Both the position numbers and the translations under genes were made by a program. Below are positions 1-27,724 of a DNA stretch of 27,813 nt, in pieces; positions within the stretch are counted from its first letter, which is position 1, and each line of letters starts with the position of its first letter. Below the pieces are notes generated by a model that saw only the letters and a list, made by a program, of their open reading frames with translations, ran no database searches and had not been told where the DNA came from. Source of the DNA: a virus; IMG/VR virus record IMGVR_UViG_3300012936_002756, positions 1 to 27,813 of that record; one strand, given 5' to 3'.

Positions 1-758
1 CTACACTTTCAACAGGTATATTTGCAGGCATAGGTATAATCTATGGGCATGAACTATCTCACACCAAAGGCATTGCATTTGTAATAAGTCGTTGGATGAT
101 GGGACTATCAGGTTCAGCACATTTCTGTTATGCTCATGTGTACAATCATCACTTGGAACTAGCAAGTGAAGATGATCCTGCAACTGCACCTCGTGGACGT
201 GATCTATATTCACACTTTATCAAATCACACTTAGGACAATCTAAGTTCCTGTTTGAAATGGAGAAAGGTAGATTGAAACGTTTAGGTAAACCTTTCTTAT
301 CCGTAGGTAATAGATGGATAAGAGGTTACATGATGAGTGTACCTACACTTGCATTATTCTTTTATGCAGGTGGTTGGTTAGGAGTTGCATGTATCGGACT
401 TGTTTGGTTAATATCAAACTTCGAACTTGAAGCACTTAACTATCTAGAACACTATGGTTTGATTCGTGTTAAAAGCGAGCCAATAGACTATAGACATTCC
501 TGGGATAACTCAACATTATTCACAAGCTGGTTCTTCATTGAGATTGGTCGCCAGGCTGATCATCATGACAGAGGTGAGACACACTTCTGGGAACTAGATG
601 AAGTAGGTGCACCTAACACAGGTGTAGGTTACTTTACACTCTTTGCGTTAGCATTGATACCTCCCGTGTTTGATCGCTTTATGAAAAAGCATTTAGACAA
701 TTGGGATAAAAACTTTGCAACCGAAGCAGAAAGAGAAATAGCAAAAACATTTGCATAA
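1..758 (+). CDS. AlkB-family membrane di-iron hydroxylase (5' end outside window)
   Basis: The reading frame is open from the left edge, so the true start lies outside; 251 residues are visible. Three histidine clusters of the integral-membrane di-iron family are present: GHELSHTKG near bases 45-71, AHVYNHHLELASEDDPA near 132-182 (alkane hydroxylases have EHxxGHH followed by a similar A-x-x-EDPA stretch), and GRQADHHDRGETHFWE near 547-594. NYLEHYGL near 439-462 matches the fourth conserved box of alkane 1-monooxygenases. Hydrophobic segments alternate with these boxes, as expected for an inner-membrane enzyme that hydroxylates a hydrophobic substrate with O2 and electrons from rubredoxin or ferredoxin. 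The substrate cannot be told. No rubredoxin gene is visible. A terminator follows directly, so the gene ends its transcript. A xylene-monooxygenase or desaturase-like relative remains possible. Confidence 0.82.
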   Translation, partial: TLSTGIFAGIGIIYGHELSHTKGIAFVISRWMMGLSGSAHFCYAHVYNHHLELASEDDPATAPRGRDLYSHFIKSHLGQSKFLFEMEKGRLKRLGKPFLSVGNRWIRGYMMSVPTLALFFYAGGWLGVACIGLVWLISNFELEALNYLEHYGLIRVKSEPIDYRHSWDNSTLFTSWFFIEIGRQADHHDRGETHFWELDEVGAPNTGVGYFTLFALALIPPVFDRFMKKHLDNWDKNFATEAEREIAKTFA

Positions 759-1914: not shown

Positions 1915-2874
1915 TTGAAAATGAAAATCATTACCGGAAATGCTAATCCTAAATTAGCACAAGAGATCGCCGAACATTGTTTTAGTGATCTTGTCCCAGC
2001 CAAAGTTACAACATTTGCAGACGGAGAATCTAGCGTAGAGTTTTTAGAAAACGTTAGAGGAGAAGACGTTTTTATTATCCAAAGCACAAGCCAACCTGTC
2101 AACGACAGTCTTATGGAACTAATGGTAATGATTGATGCGGCACGTAGATCAAGTGCTAGTCGTATTACAGCAGTTATTCCTTACTATGGTTATGCTAGAC
2201 AGGATCGTAAGAGTGCTAGTCGTACTCCTATTACAGCAAAACTAGTTGCTAACCTATTAACAACATCTGGTGCAGATAGAATCTTAACTATGGATTTACA
2301 CGCAGGACAGATACAGGGCTTCTTTGATATTCCTGTAGATGATTTAACAAGTCGTGTAATATTTGCAAAAGACATCAGACGTAGTATTGGTATTATTGAT
2401 GACCCAGAAGTTAATCAAGCAGGCACAGTATTTGTATCTCCAGATGCAGGTGGTGCAGTAAGAGCTCGTAAGTTTGCTGATATGTTTACAGGTGACATTG
2501 CTATTGTAGATAAAATGCGTCCTGAAGCAGGTAAGTCAGAAGTAATGAATTTGATTGGAGATGTTAAAGGTCGTCATGCTATTCTAGTAGACGACATTAT
2601 TGATAGTGGCGGAACACTTTGCAACGCAGCCAAAGCAATTATGGATGCAGGTGCTCTTAGTGTACGTGCATACATCACGCATGGTGTACTATCAGGTGAA
2701 GCATGTCAGAAGATTGAAAAGAGTGTGCTTGATGAATTAGTTGTTACAGATACTATTTCAAATCGTTGTCCTAAGAACTGTAAGAAAACACGTCAGGTAA
2801 GTGTAGCACCTTTGTTTGGTGAAGCAATGCGTAGAATAACTAACGAAGAATCAGTTAGCAGCCTGTTTGTATAA
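1915..2874 (+). CDS. prs: Ribose-phosphate pyrophosphokinase (PRPP synthetase)
   Basis: Makes PRPP from ribose 5-phosphate and ATP, for purine, pyrimidine and NAD synthesis. At 319 residues it is full length for the class I family (about 310-320). Diagnostic motifs are present: YYGYARQDRK in the ATP-binding loop, DLHAGQIQGFFD, and the PRPP-binding loop ILVDDIIDSGGT. The TTG at 1915 lies seven bases after AAGGAAGGA and is the better start; the ATG at 1921 would be 13 bases away and give a protein two residues shorter. It has its own sigma70-like promoter. Its last 24 bases overlap the end of hemB on the other strand. Some large phages carry prs for NAD salvage, but no nadV is in view, so here it more likely supports nucleotide supply with nrdAB. 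Confidence 0.95.
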   Translation: MKMKIITGNANPKLAQEIAEHCFSDLVPAKVTTFADGESSVEFLENVRGEDVFIIQSTSQPVNDSLMELMVMIDAARRSSASRITAVIPYYGYARQDRKSASRTPITAKLVANLLTTSGADRILTMDLHAGQIQGFFDIPVDDLTSRVIFAKDIRRSIGIIDDPEVNQAGTVFVSPDAGGAVRARKFADMFTGDIAIVDKMRPEAGKSEVMNLIGDVKGRHAILVDDIIDSGGTLCNAAKAIMDAGALSVRAYITHGVLSGEACQKIEKSVLDELVVTDTISNRCPKNCKKTRQVSVAPLFGEAMRRITNEESVSSLFV

Positions 2875-3705
2875 TTCCCTAGCACCGTAAGTAATCATAA
2901 AGTCAGCACCAGCACGTTTAAAAACATCATGTGTTTCTTTTAGTAGTTCTGGAACTAACCAAGTGTTTCGTTGTAAGCCTATGTATTCGCCGCTTGTTTG
3001 ATATACTCCGACAGGTGCTTGATACTTAGTTGCTTCTTTAATAGGCATAATAAGATCAATGCTAGTCATGCCAGGCTTAACCATTAAACTGTTAGCACCA
3101 TCATTAAAATACTTTACACTTCTAGCAATAGCAAGTTCTCTATCGTTTACATCTAATTGATAACTTCTATGTATACCTTTTTCAACTCCAATAGTTTGTC
3201 TAAAGCCATCATAGAATTGTGATCTAAACTTAGTTGAATAGCTCATTACATTTACTTTGTTAATATGTTCTTTAATATTCTTTACAGTATTATCTTGGCA
3301 GTCACTAGGTGCTAAAACATCTGCTCCGGCATCATGTACAATCTGTGCTTGATTAAACAGTTGCTCATCTGTTTTATTTGTATCCTCAGGATAGCAACAA
3401 TGCCCGTCTAGCGTAGTAGAACATAAACATATATCAACATGCAGGTTTACTTTATCTCCGTGTGCTGCTTTGATTTCACTAACAACACGTTTGTTTAGAT
3501 CCCAATCAGGTAAGTCTACTCTATCAGGCATTACAAATATTAAAATGTCTTTGACACCTAAAGCAATATCTCTTCCAATAGTATCTACTGCACCTTTAAC
3601 AGACCACGGGTGATTGTCATTACCAAGAACACATTGCTTGGATGCAAGTACCCAATCATCTCCGTTGCTTTGATTATTAATAAAGTAAGGTTGTATTAGT
3701 TTCAT
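2851..3705 (-). CDS. hemB: Delta-aminolevulinic acid dehydratase (porphobilinogen synthase)
   Basis: Condenses two 5-aminolevulinate molecules to porphobilinogen in the cytoplasm. Both active-site lysines are visible: K159 in MSYSTKF and K210 in SLMVKPG, the latter forming the Schiff base in known enzymes. The zinc-type cysteine triad is intact: DICLC (C93, C95) and GHC (C103). At 284 residues it is about 40 shorter than usual (about 325); what is missing is the N-terminal arm, which in cellular enzymes wraps a neighbouring subunit and builds the octamer. It is the last gene of the hemF-hemC-hemE-hemB operon; its start overlaps the hemE stop as ATGA. Its 3' end overlaps prs, with no terminator seen between them. 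Confidence 0.95.
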   Translation of the reverse strand: MKLIQPYFINNQSNGDDWVLASKQCVLGNDNHPWSVKGAVDTIGRDIALGVKDILIFVMPDRVDLPDWDLNKRVVSEIKAAHGDKVNLHVDICLCSTTLDGHCCYPEDTNKTDEQLFNQAQIVHDAGADVLAPSDCQDNTVKNIKEHINKVNVMSYSTKFRSQFYDGFRQTIGVEKGIHRSYQLDVNDRELAIARSVKYFNDGANSLMVKPGMTSIDLIMPIKEATKYQAPVGVYQTSGEYIGLQRNTWLVPELLKETHDVFKRAGADFMITYGARELYKQAAN

Positions 3706-4679
3706 TCAAAACGTTCCCTAACCATATCTACAAAAAGTTTTACATTCTCTTCTGGTGTTTCTTTATGTATACCGTGTCCTAGTCCACATATCCAACCAGT
3801 TCTATCAATATGCTCCATTTCATCTAGCCACTGACTAATTTCTTCTTTTACATAAGATTTTGGAGTCATCATTAACTTCTCATCAAAGTTACCTTGAATG
3901 AAGCCGTCTTGGTATTTTTTAAATGTTCTTTGTATATCAACTGTGCTGTCAATACCTATACCTGCCCAACCCATTCTATAAAGAGTAGGTAAGCATTTGT
4001 GATTTAGATGTTGTGTGTAATAACCTGTATCAGTTTGTATTAATGGTTGTAGTATATTAACGTAGTGTGTTTTAAAGAATGCTTCGCTCATGTTACCTAC
4101 ACCACTATCAAGTATCATAACTTTCTCTGCACCTGCTTCTAGTTGTAAGTTTATGTTTCTAGTTAACACAGGAACAATAACTTCTTCCATATACGCTGCC
4201 TTCCATTTCAAATCCATGTTAGGCTTTTTACCTGTAGCATAGTTTAGCAAAGTCCATGGCCCACCAACAAAGCCTATTAGGCTTTTTGATTTGTGTAGTT
4301 TCTCTCTAGTTGCAGCAACAGCCACCCTTTGAAAATCCATGTGTTCTACTGCACGTGAAATATCTTTATGTTCTTTATAGTTTTCCTCATCAATATAATA
4401 ATCAAATTGTGGACCTGGTGCAAACTTTAATGGCACACCTAAGCCTTCAATAGGAAATAGTATATCACTGAAAAGGATTGCAATATCAAAATCAAACTGA
4501 TCAATAGGAAGCATTGCTACATCAGCAGCAACCCTTGGAAGTTTACACATTTGCTCAAACGTGAAACTTTGTTTCATATCCATGTATGGTTTTTGATATC
4601 TTCCTGCTTGCCTCATCATCCATATCGGAGGACAAGACTGTTCTACCCTATTACAGGCATTCGTAAATTTTTCATTCAT
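3702..4679 (-). CDS. hemE: Uroporphyrinogen decarboxylase
   Basis: Removes four carboxyl groups from uroporphyrinogen III to give coproporphyrinogen III, the step that commits tetrapyrroles to heme or chlorophyll rather than siroheme or cobalamin. The signature RQAGRY is at residues 23-28, the substrate-binding aspartate is in FSDIL (D72), and GGPWTL, GIDSTVDI, QGNFD and HGIHKETPEENV match conserved blocks. In the usual DSWxG block the sequence reads DSGVG, so the tryptophan is replaced. At 325 residues it is slightly short for the family (about 340-355). Both ends overlap neighbours by four bases (ATGA with hemC upstream and hemB downstream), which implies translational coupling. Confidence 0.95.
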   Translation of the reverse strand: MNEKFTNACNRVEQSCPPIWMMRQAGRYQKPYMDMKQSFTFEQMCKLPRVAADVAMLPIDQFDFDIAILFSDILFPIEGLGVPLKFAPGPQFDYYIDEENYKEHKDISRAVEHMDFQRVAVAATREKLHKSKSLIGFVGGPWTLLNYATGKKPNMDLKWKAAYMEEVIVPVLTRNINLQLEAGAEKVMILDSGVGNMSEAFFKTHYVNILQPLIQTDTGYYTQHLNHKCLPTLYRMGWAGIGIDSTVDIQRTFKKYQDGFIQGNFDEKLMMTPKSYVKEEISQWLDEMEHIDRTGWICGLGHGIHKETPEENVKLFVDMVRERFE

Positions 4680-5497
4680 ATAAGTTTTGTTCCTAGTTGC
4701 TCACCTAATTCGATATAGTTTTCTTTCTTACCAATTACTTCACTATACTTATCAGTTTCGAAGTTGTGAGCTTCCATCATTAAGTAGTCGCCAACAATAC
4801 TAGATATGCAACCAACAGCAGTATGGCAGTCGCCGTTTATAACTTCTAGCATCTTGCGTTCAGCCATTGCACATTTATATGTGTCTGGGTGCGAAGATGT
4901 AGATAATAAATTACTTGCAGAACTTTTCTTTCTTGTTTGTAATGCAATAACTCCTTGCCCAACAGCAGGAAACATTTCTCTAATGGTAAACGTTTTTGTT
5001 ATCTTATCTTGTAACCCTAATGCTTCAAGACCTGCAACAGCAAGTAAAATAGCATCATACTGTCCGCTTTCTACTTTAGAAATACGTGTATCAATGTTTC
5101 CTCTAATAGGAACAATTTCTGCTTGTGGATATAATTTTTTTAGTTGTGCAATTCTACGAGGACTACCTGTTCCTATTTTTGCTCCTGGCTTATCAGGATT
5201 ACCAATTACACAATCTCTAGGATCATTACGTTTTAATACTGCTGATATCTCAAGTACATCATCTGAATCTCTTGTTAAGTCTTTTAAACTGTGAACAGCA
5301 ATATCAATTTCTTTGTCTATTAATTTTTGTTCGATGGCTTTACAGAATACTCCTTTGCCACCCATTTCTAATATAGGAGTGTCTGGATTTATTTCTGCTT
5401 CAGTTGTTACTGTAACTATCTCAGCATTGTTAATTAGAGCTGCTGCCCTACTTGCATACTCCAATGCTAGTTTACTTCCTCTGACACCTATTTTCAT
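4676..5497 (-). CDS. hemC: Porphobilinogen deaminase (hydroxymethylbilane synthase)
   Basis: Polymerises four porphobilinogens into hydroxymethylbilane using a covalent dipyrromethane cofactor. The cofactor cysteine is C224 in NGDCHTAVGC, matching GGCQVPIG in cellular enzymes. The catalytic aspartate is in AVHSLKDL (D73), and GTGSPRR, IRGNIDTR and AVGQG match the substrate-binding blocks. At 273 residues it is about 35 shorter than typical; the loss is in the C-terminal domain. The start overlaps the stop of the 25-residue membrane ORF (ATGA). No hemD (uroporphyrinogen III synthase) follows, although hemC-hemD is a common bacterial pairing, so the product must be cyclised by a host enzyme or by one outside this window. 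Confidence 0.94.
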   Translation of the reverse strand: MKIGVRGSKLALEYASRAAALINNAEIVTVTTEAEINPDTPILEMGGKGVFCKAIEQKLIDKEIDIAVHSLKDLTRDSDDVLEISAVLKRNDPRDCVIGNPDKPGAKIGTGSPRRIAQLKKLYPQAEIVPIRGNIDTRISKVESGQYDAILLAVAGLEALGLQDKITKTFTIREMFPAVGQGVIALQTRKKSSASNLLSTSSHPDTYKCAMAERKMLEVINGDCHTAVGCISSIVGDYLMMEAHNFETDKYSEVIGKKENYIELGEQLGTKLI

Positions 5498-5571
5498 TTT
5501 CTAACCTTCTTTATAATCCAAGCAATGAATGCTAAGATAGCCGCAGTCAATGCACCTATCCCAACGTTCAC
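5494..5571 (-). CDS. 25-residue membrane micropeptide inside the heme operon
   Basis: This GTG-started frame fills the only gap in the heme operon. Its GTG overlaps the hemF stop (GTGA) and its TGA overlaps the hemC start (ATGA), the same 4-base coupling used by the other genes in the operon. The peptide starts MNVGIGALTAAILAFIAWII and ends KKVRK: one hydrophobic helix of about 18 residues followed by a strongly basic tail, so an N-out/C-in single-pass topology is expected. I know of no family for it. The exact fit between two stop/start overlaps is the main evidence that it is real. It could recruit heme enzymes to the membrane or modulate a host membrane enzyme of the pathway; both ideas are guesses. 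It could also be only a coupling device that carries ribosomes from hemF to hemC. Confidence 0.6.
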   Translation of the reverse strand: MNVGIGALTAAILAFIAWIIKKVRK

Positions 5572-6386
5572 GGCCAACTCACATCTGGCGGTAAGCTCAT
5601 TAATATTGCTTCCATGTTGCCGCCTGTTTTAAAACCAAACTTAGTTCCTCTATCATATAATAAGTTAAACTCTACATATCGCCCACGTTTGATTTTTTGT
5701 ATATTTTTATGTTCATCAGTATAGTTGTTGTTCATGTAATTAATTGCAGTTGTTCTAACAACATCTGCAAATCCAGTACCTAAACGCATTACAAATTCAA
5801 AGTCCATATCTTTAGGATCGTAATACTCAAAGAACAATCCTCCTATACCTCTTGTTTCTTTTCTATGAGGCAAGTAAAAGTATTCATCACATGCTTTACT
5901 AAACTTATCGTACCAAGTTGCATCATATGTGTCACAAATCTTTTTAAGGTCTTTATGATATCTAATCTTAAATGTTTCGTTATCCAAGCAAGGTGTTAAA
6001 TCCATACCCCCACCAAACCATTCTTTCTCATGTGTTTTAAGATATCTTGTATTAAAGTGCATCGCAGGCACCCAAGGATTAGTAGGGTGTAATACTACAC
6101 TTATACCTGTGGCATAATACTGTCTATTATCGTCAGTTGTGCCAGGAATCTCTTTTGCGAATTTAGGATCAAACTCTCCTGTTACGCAAGAGTAATTTAC
6201 TGTACCTTTTTCAAATACATTTCCACGTATAACTTTGTGTGTTTGAGTCCAGCCTTCTCTGCTAGAATGTCCACCTTCTTCCATTTTAATAGGATTGTTG
6301 GGTGTAAATCGTGCTTCTACTTCATTTATGTTATCTTCTATGATTTGCGCAAGATTTGCAAACCATTCAGTATACATTGTGTTCAT
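5568..6386 (-). CDS. hemF: Oxygen-dependent coproporphyrinogen III oxidase
   Basis: Converts coproporphyrinogen III to protoporphyrinogen IX using O2, with no metal or cofactor. Diagnostic blocks are GGGMDLTPC, HRKETRGIGGLFFEYYD, RGRYVEFNLLYDRGT and GFKTGGNMEAILMSLPP, ending in VSWP as in family members that end near LVRW. The length of 272 fits the lower part of the family range (about 280-310), with a short N-terminus. It is the first gene of the operon. A TAAATA box (6392-6397) lies exactly five bases before the ATG and no Shine-Dalgarno sequence is seen, so a leaderless late mRNA is predicted. An in-frame ATG three codons later is an alternative start. Confidence 0.95.
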   Translation of the reverse strand: MNTMYTEWFANLAQIIEDNINEVEARFTPNNPIKMEEGGHSSREGWTQTHKVIRGNVFEKGTVNYSCVTGEFDPKFAKEIPGTTDDNRQYYATGISVVLHPTNPWVPAMHFNTRYLKTHEKEWFGGGMDLTPCLDNETFKIRYHKDLKKICDTYDATWYDKFSKACDEYFYLPHRKETRGIGGLFFEYYDPKDMDFEFVMRLGTGFADVVRTTAINYMNNNYTDEHKNIQKIKRGRYVEFNLLYDRGTKFGFKTGGNMEAILMSLPPDVSWP

Positions 6387-25880: not shown

Positions 25881-25898
25881 CATCGTAAGGAGAACTAG

Positions 25899-26954
25899 AT
25901 GCCACCACGTAATCACGTTAACTGGTTAAAGAAACCAGTAGTAGAATCAATTAGTAGCACAGCCTACAACAATCCAAAAATATTTGCACAAGAGCAAGAA
26001 CAGATCTTTAAGAAGGTATGGGTACCTATGTGTCATATAAGTGAAATGTATGAACTTGGTAACTTTAGAACAACACAGATAGCAGGTGTGAATGTTATTG
26101 CGTACAACACAGGCGATAGTGTTCGAGCATATCGAAACTACGGAATTAATCAACCAAGCGGCACACTTGCCGCACCAATAGTAACAGTTGAACCACAACT
26201 ACATTGTGAAGTAAAGCATGGTGGTATGGTATGGGTAACACTTAATCCTAATCCTACACAGAGTGTAGAAGAATGGACAGCAGGTGCATTTGATTGTATC
26301 GCTGATGCTATTGACACAGAAGAGATGGAAGTATTTCATTACCACAAAGCAATTATAGATACAAACTATAAACTGTGGCATGATACAAACAGTGAATTCT
26401 ATCATGATTTCATGCACTACTTCAATAGAGTAAGTGGATTCAATGACGAATACTTTGCACGTAAGAACATACCTTTTGATAACGGACATGTTAATGTAAG
26501 TTCGTTCACTGTTAACTATGAAGAGTACGAAGGCTTTGAAGATAGAGGAGAACTTAGTTTTCCTAACTTGCCTCCTAACCAATGGTATATGGTTGACCTA
26601 TTTCCTGGATTTAACTTTAACCTACGAGGCAGTGCTTACCGTTCGGATAGTGTAACGCCATTAAGTTGTAATCAAGTTCTTATAGAGTTTAGAGGTTACG
26701 GCCTACGCAAAGATACTAAAGAAGAAAGACTTACACGTATCAAACATCACAACAGCATATGGGGACCTTTTGGACGTAATCTACACGAAGACCTAATTGG
26801 TGTAGCAGGACAAGGTACAACCATGCGTGAAGGTACAGAAGCAAGACGCATACTACATGGTAGACACGAGAATGGAACTATACATGATGAAGTTGGTATG
26901 CGCCATTACTACAGCGAATGGGGCAAGTACTTAGATGTTGACCCGTATCAGTAA
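25899..26954 (+). CDS. Ring-hydroxylating oxygenase alpha-subunit homologue lacking the Rieske motif (351 residues)
   Basis: The N-terminal region follows the family pattern (FAQEQEQIFKKVWVPMCHIS, ELGNFRTTQIAGVNVIAY, SVRAYRN), but where normal proteins have C-x-H-R and, about 17 residues later, C-x-x-H, this one reads NYGINQPSGTLAAPIVTVEP and goes straight to HGGMVWVTLNP. The cluster-binding loops are deleted. The catalytic mononuclear-iron site appears intact: NYKLWHDTNSEFYHDFMH supplies H169 and H173 (spacing three residues instead of the usual four), and NLHEDLIGVAGQG supplies the facial aspartate (D298). Without the Rieske cluster there is no internal electron donor, so it may be an iron protein with a new electron source, a ligand binder or a decoy subunit. 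Substrate unknown. Confidence 0.82.
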   Translation: MPPRNHVNWLKKPVVESISSTAYNNPKIFAQEQEQIFKKVWVPMCHISEMYELGNFRTTQIAGVNVIAYNTGDSVRAYRNYGINQPSGTLAAPIVTVEPQLHCEVKHGGMVWVTLNPNPTQSVEEWTAGAFDCIADAIDTEEMEVFHYHKAIIDTNYKLWHDTNSEFYHDFMHYFNRVSGFNDEYFARKNIPFDNGHVNVSSFTVNYEEYEGFEDRGELSFPNLPPNQWYMVDLFPGFNFNLRGSAYRSDSVTPLSCNQVLIEFRGYGLRKDTKEERLTRIKHHNSIWGPFGRNLHEDLIGVAGQGTTMREGTEARRILHGRHENGTIHDEVGMRHYYSEWGKYLDVDPYQ

Positions 26955-27021
26955 ACGTTGGTTTAAACTTTTAGATTGGGTATCAAGAGATGCCGGACCC
27001 AAACACATGGGTAGAAAATAA
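26935..27021 (+). CDS. Possible 28-residue basic peptide overlapping the oxygenase end
   Basis: Starts inside the last codons of the oxygenase in another frame (ATG at 26935) and encodes MLTRISKRWFKLLDWVSRDA with a basic end. An amphipathic, Arg/Trp-rich helix is likely. No ribosome binding site beyond the overlapping gene; support is weak. Confidence 0.3.
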   Translation: MLTRISKRWFKLLDWVSRDAGPKHMGRK

Positions 27022-27035
27022 TTTTCAAAAAACGG

Positions 27036-27066
27036 TTGACAAACCAATAATATGGTAGTATAAATA
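27036..27066 (+). promoter_or_regulatory. Overlapping sigma70-like and late promoters of the tmRNA-tRNA unit
   Basis: TTGACA (27036-27041), 17 bases, TATAAA (27059-27064); the same bases form TATAAATA (27059-27066). The predicted start is near 27072. Confidence 0.65.
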
Positions 27067-27071
27067 TAACT

Positions 27072-27340
27072 GTAACGTTGAAGCCAATCAACGACATATC
27101 GGACTCGGGGGCAGTACCCGACGCCTCCACCATAAGCACATTATTCTAATAGTTGGTAATGTTCTTATGATGGGGGCGAACTAGGATCGACGAGTGTATT
27201 AGAGAACGTGGAGTTACCGGTAGGCGATGACCGTAAATCAAGCAAAACTATAGACGCAAACGAAAACTTTGCTCTTGCTGCCTAGTTACTAGGTGACGGG
27301 GTTGGCAACTTACCTGGCAACAGAAAAGTTGCACCTTTAT
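27072..27340 (+). ncRNA. ssrA: Circularly permuted (two-piece) tmRNA
   Basis: The order is inverted relative to standard tmRNA. First comes the acceptor piece, with a T-arm-like CGGG-GGCAGTA-CCCG hairpin and the 3' end GCCTCCACCA at 27123-27132; then a 39-base spacer (27133-27171); then the coding piece starting GGGGGCGAAC at 27172. GGGGGC pairs with GCCTCC to rebuild the acceptor stem, and GTTGGC (27301-27306) can pair with GCCAAT (27083-27088) to join the pieces. The tag frame at 27256-27285 is GCA AAC GAA AAC TTT GCT CTT GCT GCC TAG, encoding ANENFALAA, preceded by TAGAC as in other tmRNAs. Permuted tmRNA is characteristic of alphaproteobacteria and some cyanobacteria and betaproteobacteria, so it points to the host lineage. 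The outer ends are approximate. Confidence 0.88.
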
Positions 27341-27347
27341 TGACAAA

Positions 27348-27421
27348 GGGTGAATGGTGTAGTGGTAACACGCCGGTCTCCAAAACCGTAGATTGAGGTT
27401 CGATTCCTTGTTCGCCTGCCA
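27348..27421 (+). tRNA. tRNA-Trp (anticodon CCA)
   Basis: A complete cloverleaf of 74 bases: acceptor GGGTGAA with TTCGCCT (two wobble pairs), D-arm GTGT-AGTGGTA-ACAC, anticodon loop CTCCAAA between CGGT and ACCG, T-arm TGAGG-TTCGATT-CCTTG, discriminator G and encoded CCA. The first anticodon-stem pair is mismatched (C-T), and the T-stem has wobble pairs. It follows the tmRNA without a visible promoter or terminator, so both are probably processed from one transcript. Confidence 0.9.
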
Positions 27422-27442: not shown

Positions 27443-27724
27443 ATGAATAAAGAAGAATACGACGAAATAGTAAAAAGAATCAATACCCTTATTGATAATC
27501 AGGTTCAGCCAGCAGTAGAACAGCACGGAGGCTTTATTAAATTTGAAGACTTTGATCAGTCAACAGGCCGTGTAAGTGTTTTACTACAAGGATCATGTTC
27601 TGGTTGTGCAAGTAGCACAGTAACACTCAAGATGGGTGTAGAGAACATGTTGAAACATTACATTCCAGAAGTAACAGGTGTAGACGGAATGGATGACCCC
27701 AACTTTAATAATCCATATTATTAA
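27443..27724 (+). CDS. NifU C-terminal (Nfu) domain Fe-S carrier (93 residues)
   Basis: The whole protein is one Nfu domain: INTLIDNQVQPAVEQHGGFI, VSVLLQGSCSGCASST with the cluster-binding CxxC (C52, C55), and LKMGVENMLKHYIPEV. Two such subunits hold a [4Fe-4S] cluster and pass it to target enzymes. Unlike bacterial NfuA it has no degenerate A-type domain. Likely clients in phage infection are host Fe-S enzymes; the Rieske-less oxygenase nearby does not look like a client. Confidence 0.93.
   Translation: MNKEEYDEIVKRINTLIDNQVQPAVEQHGGFIKFEDFDQSTGRVSVLLQGSCSGCASSTVTLKMGVENMLKHYIPEVTGVDGMDDPNFNNPYY

Follow-up and report, generated by a model that had tools for sequence, protein, structure and literature searches.

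A Rieske oxygenase homologue without its cluster in marine viruses, possibly the catalytic half of an enzyme split with SAR116 hosts

A viral gene that keeps the iron site and lacks the Rieske site

The window analysed here is the whole of the 27.8-kb virus record IMGVR_UViG_3300012936_002756 (27,813 nucleotides). An intact open reading frame of 351 amino acids occupies positions 25899–26954 of its plus strand, with the ribosome binding site AAGGAG (25887–25892, plus strand) 6 bases 5' of the ATG. The sole Pfam match of its product was PF00848, the catalytic domain of Rieske oxygenases, at 24.0 bits against a cut-off of 24.9. The Rieske domain PF00355 was not found in this Pfam search; a full-length relative matched both families. 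PHROGs assigned the product to no family. The product shares 70% identity with gp61 of the Puniceispirillum phage HMO-2011, which is annotated as the alpha subunit of methanesulfonate monooxygenase (MSAMO alpha, MsmA). We call this Rieske-less catalytic protein alpha_C and its Rieske-bearing partner, described below, alpha_R; both labels are coined here.

All four ligands of the Rieske cluster (C-x-H and C-x2-H) are absent from the window alpha_C. In the alignment, a deletion scar covers residues 81–106 (26139–26216, plus strand), where both cluster-binding loops are gone and the stretch from VRAYRN to HGGMVW is 26 residues long, versus 73 in a full-length relative. An earlier note on this DNA, written from the letters alone, had described a Rieske oxygenase homologue that had lost its cluster, and the ligand and Pfam results bear this out. 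The segment that it gave as roughly half the usual length is indeed shortened, but to about a third. The predicted iron ligands that it had named, H169 (26403–26405), H173 (26415–26417) and D298 (26790–26792, all on the plus strand), are retained and, together with E297, are invariant in an alignment of 88 sequences that includes ordinary Rieske oxygenases. The H-x3-H spacing of the two histidines, which the note had called shortened, is real, but its tie to the loss of the Rieske site does not hold: the same spacing is seen in full-length MsmA whose Rieske site is intact. It is therefore unconnected with the loss, and we rejected it as a marker; judging from the alignment, H-x3-H is a trait of the MsmA family.

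Three residues before the first histidine, an alignment of alpha_C, full-length MsmA and alpha_R places E166 (26394–26396, plus strand) at a position that we take to be that of the bridging acid of the CntA E205/NDO D205 type. It is a glutamate in 32/32 viral alpha_C, 19/19 other alpha_C and 24/24 full-length sequences, and is K, Q or deleted in all 12 alpha_R.

AlphaFold2 modelled the window alpha_C with a pLDDT of 90 and a pTM of 0.90 from the 88-sequence alignment, which contained full-length oxygenases; an earlier model from 20 near-identical sequences had a pLDDT of 55 and was set aside. The best Foldseek match of the predicted model was terephthalate dioxygenase (TPADO; 7vju, E 4.9e-20, TM 0.75), and TPADO and salicylate 5-hydroxylase, at a TM of ~0.75, were its top matches among solved structures. 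A fold search of a viral library gave weak, partial matches only. TPADO (7vju, 7q04) and salicylate 5-hydroxylase (7c8z) are the closest solved structures by both profile and fold; they differ from alpha_C in that the alpha subunit is complete and bears a Rieske cluster, and their identity to it is ~14–18%. According to the model, the overall fold of an alpha subunit is retained in alpha_C.

Each of three scans of IMG/VR gave at least ~597 confirmed contigs with an alpha_C homologue among the matches listed. The CxH...CxxH motif was absent from all 229 viral homologues examined, whereas the iron site was present in 228, the remaining one being cut by the end of its contig. Over the whole of the viral alpha_C genes, pairwise dN/dS was 0.081; it fell to 0.048 in the catalytic domain and to 0.016 in the iron-binding helix, and rose to ~0.44 across the deletion scar. 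As far as its sequence allows us to judge, alpha_C is thus a Rieske-oxygenase scaffold that has no cluster, keeps a predicted 2-His-1-carboxylate site and is no pseudogene. One viral contig carries a second, partial alpha_C-like reading frame 3' of the first (L265, 5853–6482).

The region just 3' of alpha_C in the window contains a permuted tmRNA of the alphaproteobacterial type (RF01849, 143 bits; tag ANENFALAA) followed by a tRNA-Trp (27019–27421, plus strand), and then a gene for a NifU-like domain, an Fe-S carrier (27443–27724, plus strand), which might serve the Rieske cluster of the host; such a gene is found no more than 3 kb from alpha_C in 13 of the viral loci. A tmRNA was predicted in 39 of the viral loci scanned. 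The permuted tmRNA fits an alphaproteobacterial host, and SAR116 would be our candidate; the tag pattern of the window occurred in 0 of 136 SAR116 genomes. Four genes of the heme pathway lie on the minus strand at 2851–6386, namely HemB, HemE and HemC, with overlapping ends, and HemF. Relatives of this HemE with 70–92% identity were found in only 13 IMG/VR contigs, and there was no close match among annotated phages. Further auxiliary metabolic genes encode a fatty-acid desaturase-family (AlkB-like) protein (3–758, plus strand) and a PRPP synthetase (1915–2874, plus strand).

The SAR116 operon and a reciprocally decayed partner

The SAR116 operon has the order alpha_R, MsmB, MsmC, a gene of unknown function and alpha_C, and is adjoined by LysR and the sulfite exporter TauE; genes for an msmE-type transporter lie near some of the bacterial alpha_C copies. 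MsmC is a Rieske ferredoxin. The protein encoded between MsmC and alpha_C (281 aa; L085, 3951–4796) is conserved in SAR116 operons, has no Pfam match and is a candidate extra subunit.

The partner, alpha_R, is an MsmA-like protein of ~796 aa, in which the Rieske motif CPHRG...CMFHAW is intact with its 26-residue spacer (CxH-X26-CxxH) and the iron site is destroyed. Its Pfam matches are PF00355, Pyr_redox_2 and Reductase_C, without PF00848. In most cases it forms one polypeptide with an FAD reductase. The losses in the two proteins are reciprocal. The four Rieske ligands are present in all 12 alpha_R sequences, every one of which has lost the bridging acid and the first iron histidine; E166, H169, H173 and D298 are present in all 51 aligned alpha_C rows, none of which has the Rieske ligands; and full-length MsmA has every Rieske, iron and bridging residue in 24/24 sequences. 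The same reciprocity is seen in the identity to full-length SAR116 MsmA: for the Rieske domain it is 83% in alpha_R and 37–40% in alpha_C, and for the catalytic domain 39% and 73–74% (the latter over 242 columns), respectively. The Rieske site missing from alpha_C is thus found, in bacteria, on a second MsmA-like protein that has no iron site.

Among 136 Puniceispirillales genomes, alpha_C was found in 12 and alpha_R in the identical 12; as the count was made inside one order, these genomes are not independent. One further genome has a complete MsmA, and the remaining genomes have none of the three. The 12 include a genome in a single contig (2,753,527 bases), which we take to be IMCC1322, the host of HMO-2011. 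In its alpha_R the iron-site helix is substituted (E to K and H to Q in the alignment) and not deleted, a milder stage of iron-site decay. The alpha_C gene lies ~12 kb away from the alpha_R operon in three SAR116 loci. Two MAG loci (L081 and L096) have alpha_C without alpha_R, and both resemble viral contigs; another MAG locus with alpha_C (L084) ends at the end of its contig. In one genome (G006; L145, 14189–16575), two overlapping reading frames of 330 and 465 aa encode alpha_R and its reductase individually, the result of either fission or a sequencing frameshift.

In the tree, alpha_R is nested among full-length MsmA and alpha_C forms a separate, older branch, so that a single duplication followed by reciprocal loss is unsupported. 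All cellular alpha_C form one clade (support 100/100) placed among the viral alpha_C. Hence, a viral origin of the bacterial gene may be considered. The direction of transfer is not settled, as a tree constrained to keep the viral alpha_C together was not rejected (AU p = 0.144).

How electrons might reach the viral iron site

In CntA, the Rieske cluster and the iron are >40 Å apart within a monomer and adjacent between neighbouring monomers, with glutamate E205 bridging them (PMC7948474). A 2025 review gives the distance as ~12 Å and lists alpha3-alpha'3 assemblies (PMC12445004). Because Rieske electrons cross between subunits, the reciprocal alpha_C and alpha_R can be read as a split oxygenase: with cluster and iron adjacent only across subunits, a cluster-only subunit beside an iron-only subunit can form a working interface, and an acid that is invariant in alpha_C and lost in alpha_R fits such a transfer. 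We consider it likely that a Rieske monooxygenase of the MsmA kind has been split, that the window protein is its catalytic half and that the virus depends on the Rieske half of its host. The reciprocal loss of ligands, the common operon, the exact co-occurrence, the purifying selection on the iron site and the fold all support such a split.

In this enzyme, alpha_C would hold the mononuclear iron and the substrate and would have no electron-relay cluster of its own, and the SAR116 alpha_R would keep the Rieske cluster, without an iron site and usually with a fused FAD/NAD reductase. The two half-dead subunits would form a mixed complex with MsmB in which the interfaces work. Electrons would be supplied by the reductase and by MsmC, the Rieske ferredoxin, and each would pass from the Rieske cluster of alpha_R, across the bridging acid, to the iron of the neighbouring alpha_C.

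Neither alpha_R nor MsmB, MsmC, MsmD or MsmE was found in 228 viral loci (2.1 Mb), in which viral alpha_C differs from MsmA in its surroundings; bacterial alpha_C resembles MsmA in this respect, lying near msmB, msmC and TauE. A search of viral contigs found no alpha_R either, and in 24 viral records of 53–222 kb the only matches were to alpha_C itself. As the partner was found in none of the viruses examined, the virus would supply the catalytic half and use the Rieske half of the host. During infection, viral alpha_C would join the host alpha_R, MsmB and MsmC, and the benefit would probably be that more methanesulfonate (MSA), the presumed substrate, is turned into formaldehyde and sulfite. 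The organisms for which growth on MSA has been proved all have a complete MsmA (PMC4433239). On balance we lean, if only slightly, towards a wider picture in which a SAR116 Rieske monooxygenase is split over two reciprocally decayed alpha subunits, abundant marine viruses carry its catalytic half and form a hybrid virus–host enzyme, and the bacterial alpha_C may be derived from viruses.

Both the presence of a Rieske ferredoxin, MsmC, in the operon and the case of NdmC would allow alpha_C to be a terminal oxygenase that is fed directly by a separate Rieske or ferredoxin protein, namely the host MsmC, with alpha_R outside the complex. NdmC, of the caffeine N7-demethylase NdmCDE, is a characterised Rieske-less mononuclear-iron oxygenase, the Rieske domain of which has become detached and joined to a reductase; it is fed by this extra Rieske domain of NdmD, which shows that a protein other than an alpha subunit can be the donor (PMC4408171). 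However, alpha_R tracks alpha_C genome by genome, and its trimer-type Rieske domain has stayed 83% identical while its catalytic half decays. This is hard to account for unless alpha_R is the donor, and we regard direct feeding as unlikely.

It is very improbable that viral alpha_C acts as a decoy or a poison, joining the oxygenase of the host to block or redirect it. Such a protein would enter host complexes without the required cofactor, and viruses do carry alpha_C only, but within the viral gene constraint is strongest at the iron site (see the dN/dS values of the helix and the catalytic domain above) and bacteria hold the same Rieske-less form within their own operon. The idea of the earlier note, a new type of mononuclear iron enzyme without the cluster, here read as an oxygenase that has a reductant of its own, would explain why the iron site and the predicted fold are retained when the cluster ligands are gone. 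We give it equally little credence, as the bridging acid for inter-subunit transfer is invariant in alpha_C and a Rieske-only partner is encoded in the same bacterial operon. Finally, an assembly deletion, a misprediction or a decaying gene, for which no supporting point was found, is ruled out for practical purposes by strong purifying selection and by a deletion common to cellular copies and to 229 viral copies on separate contigs, the outcome of the viral metagenome search that the note had proposed; its remarks on a strong ribosome binding site and an undisrupted, non-decaying gene stand as well.

The reading of alpha_C as one half of a split enzyme accounts for the fact that the viral protein alone cannot take up electrons in the usual way. 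It predicts that the hosts able to use the viral gene are those with alpha_R. Furthermore, a natural parting of the two redox centres offers a direct test of the long-assumed electron transfer between subunits.

Known relatives and an independent recurrence

The missing motif itself has been in print for some time. HMO-2011 gp61 and one 'MsmA' of IMCC1322 (Kang et al. 2013; Henriques & De Marco 2015) belong to the same family and lack the same motif. Henriques & De Marco (2015) wrote that, of the two MsmA of P. marinum IMCC1322, a single one has the motif, and noted its absence from many MsmA of marine metagenomes and viromes, including that of HMO-2011 (PMC4433239). On alpha subunits that lack a Rieske site, or on an MSAMO that is split, the literature yielded only this 2015 observation and the NdmC case. 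No publication that we found speaks of reciprocal loss in a partner, of the common operon logic or of dependence on the partner, and a Rieske-bearing, iron-site-less partner of alpha_C seems to be unreported. Because the loss is already published, H-x3-H is an MsmA trait and NdmC is a precedent, the claim of a new type without a relay is unsupported; the relay has apparently moved to a second polypeptide of the bacterial operon and has not been dispensed with.

The likeness to NdmC, a Rieske-less catalytic protein with a Rieske domain on a reductase polypeptide, is one of design and is not put forward as one of descent. The SAR116 donor differs in being an entire alpha subunit in decay, with an FAD reductase of the glutathione-reductase type fused to it, and no counterpart of the GST-like NdmE was identified in SAR116. 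The viral 'msmA' has been reported as an auxiliary gene for the breakdown of organosulfur compounds in the ocean, and it is unsafe to count a viral or SAR116 msmA as a complete MSA monooxygenase.

A comparable arrangement occurs in MsmA-like operons of other Alphaproteobacteria, in distant relatives with 32–41% identity. Here a second alpha gene comes after a complete one, and its product retains the iron site but lacks Rieske ligands. The loss is complete in two such loci (L355 and L356) and partial in a third (L357), where C-P-Q-C replaces C-P-H-R. In the tree, these second alphas form a clade separate from alpha_C; therefore, loss of the Rieske site in a tandem alpha subunit arose at least two times.
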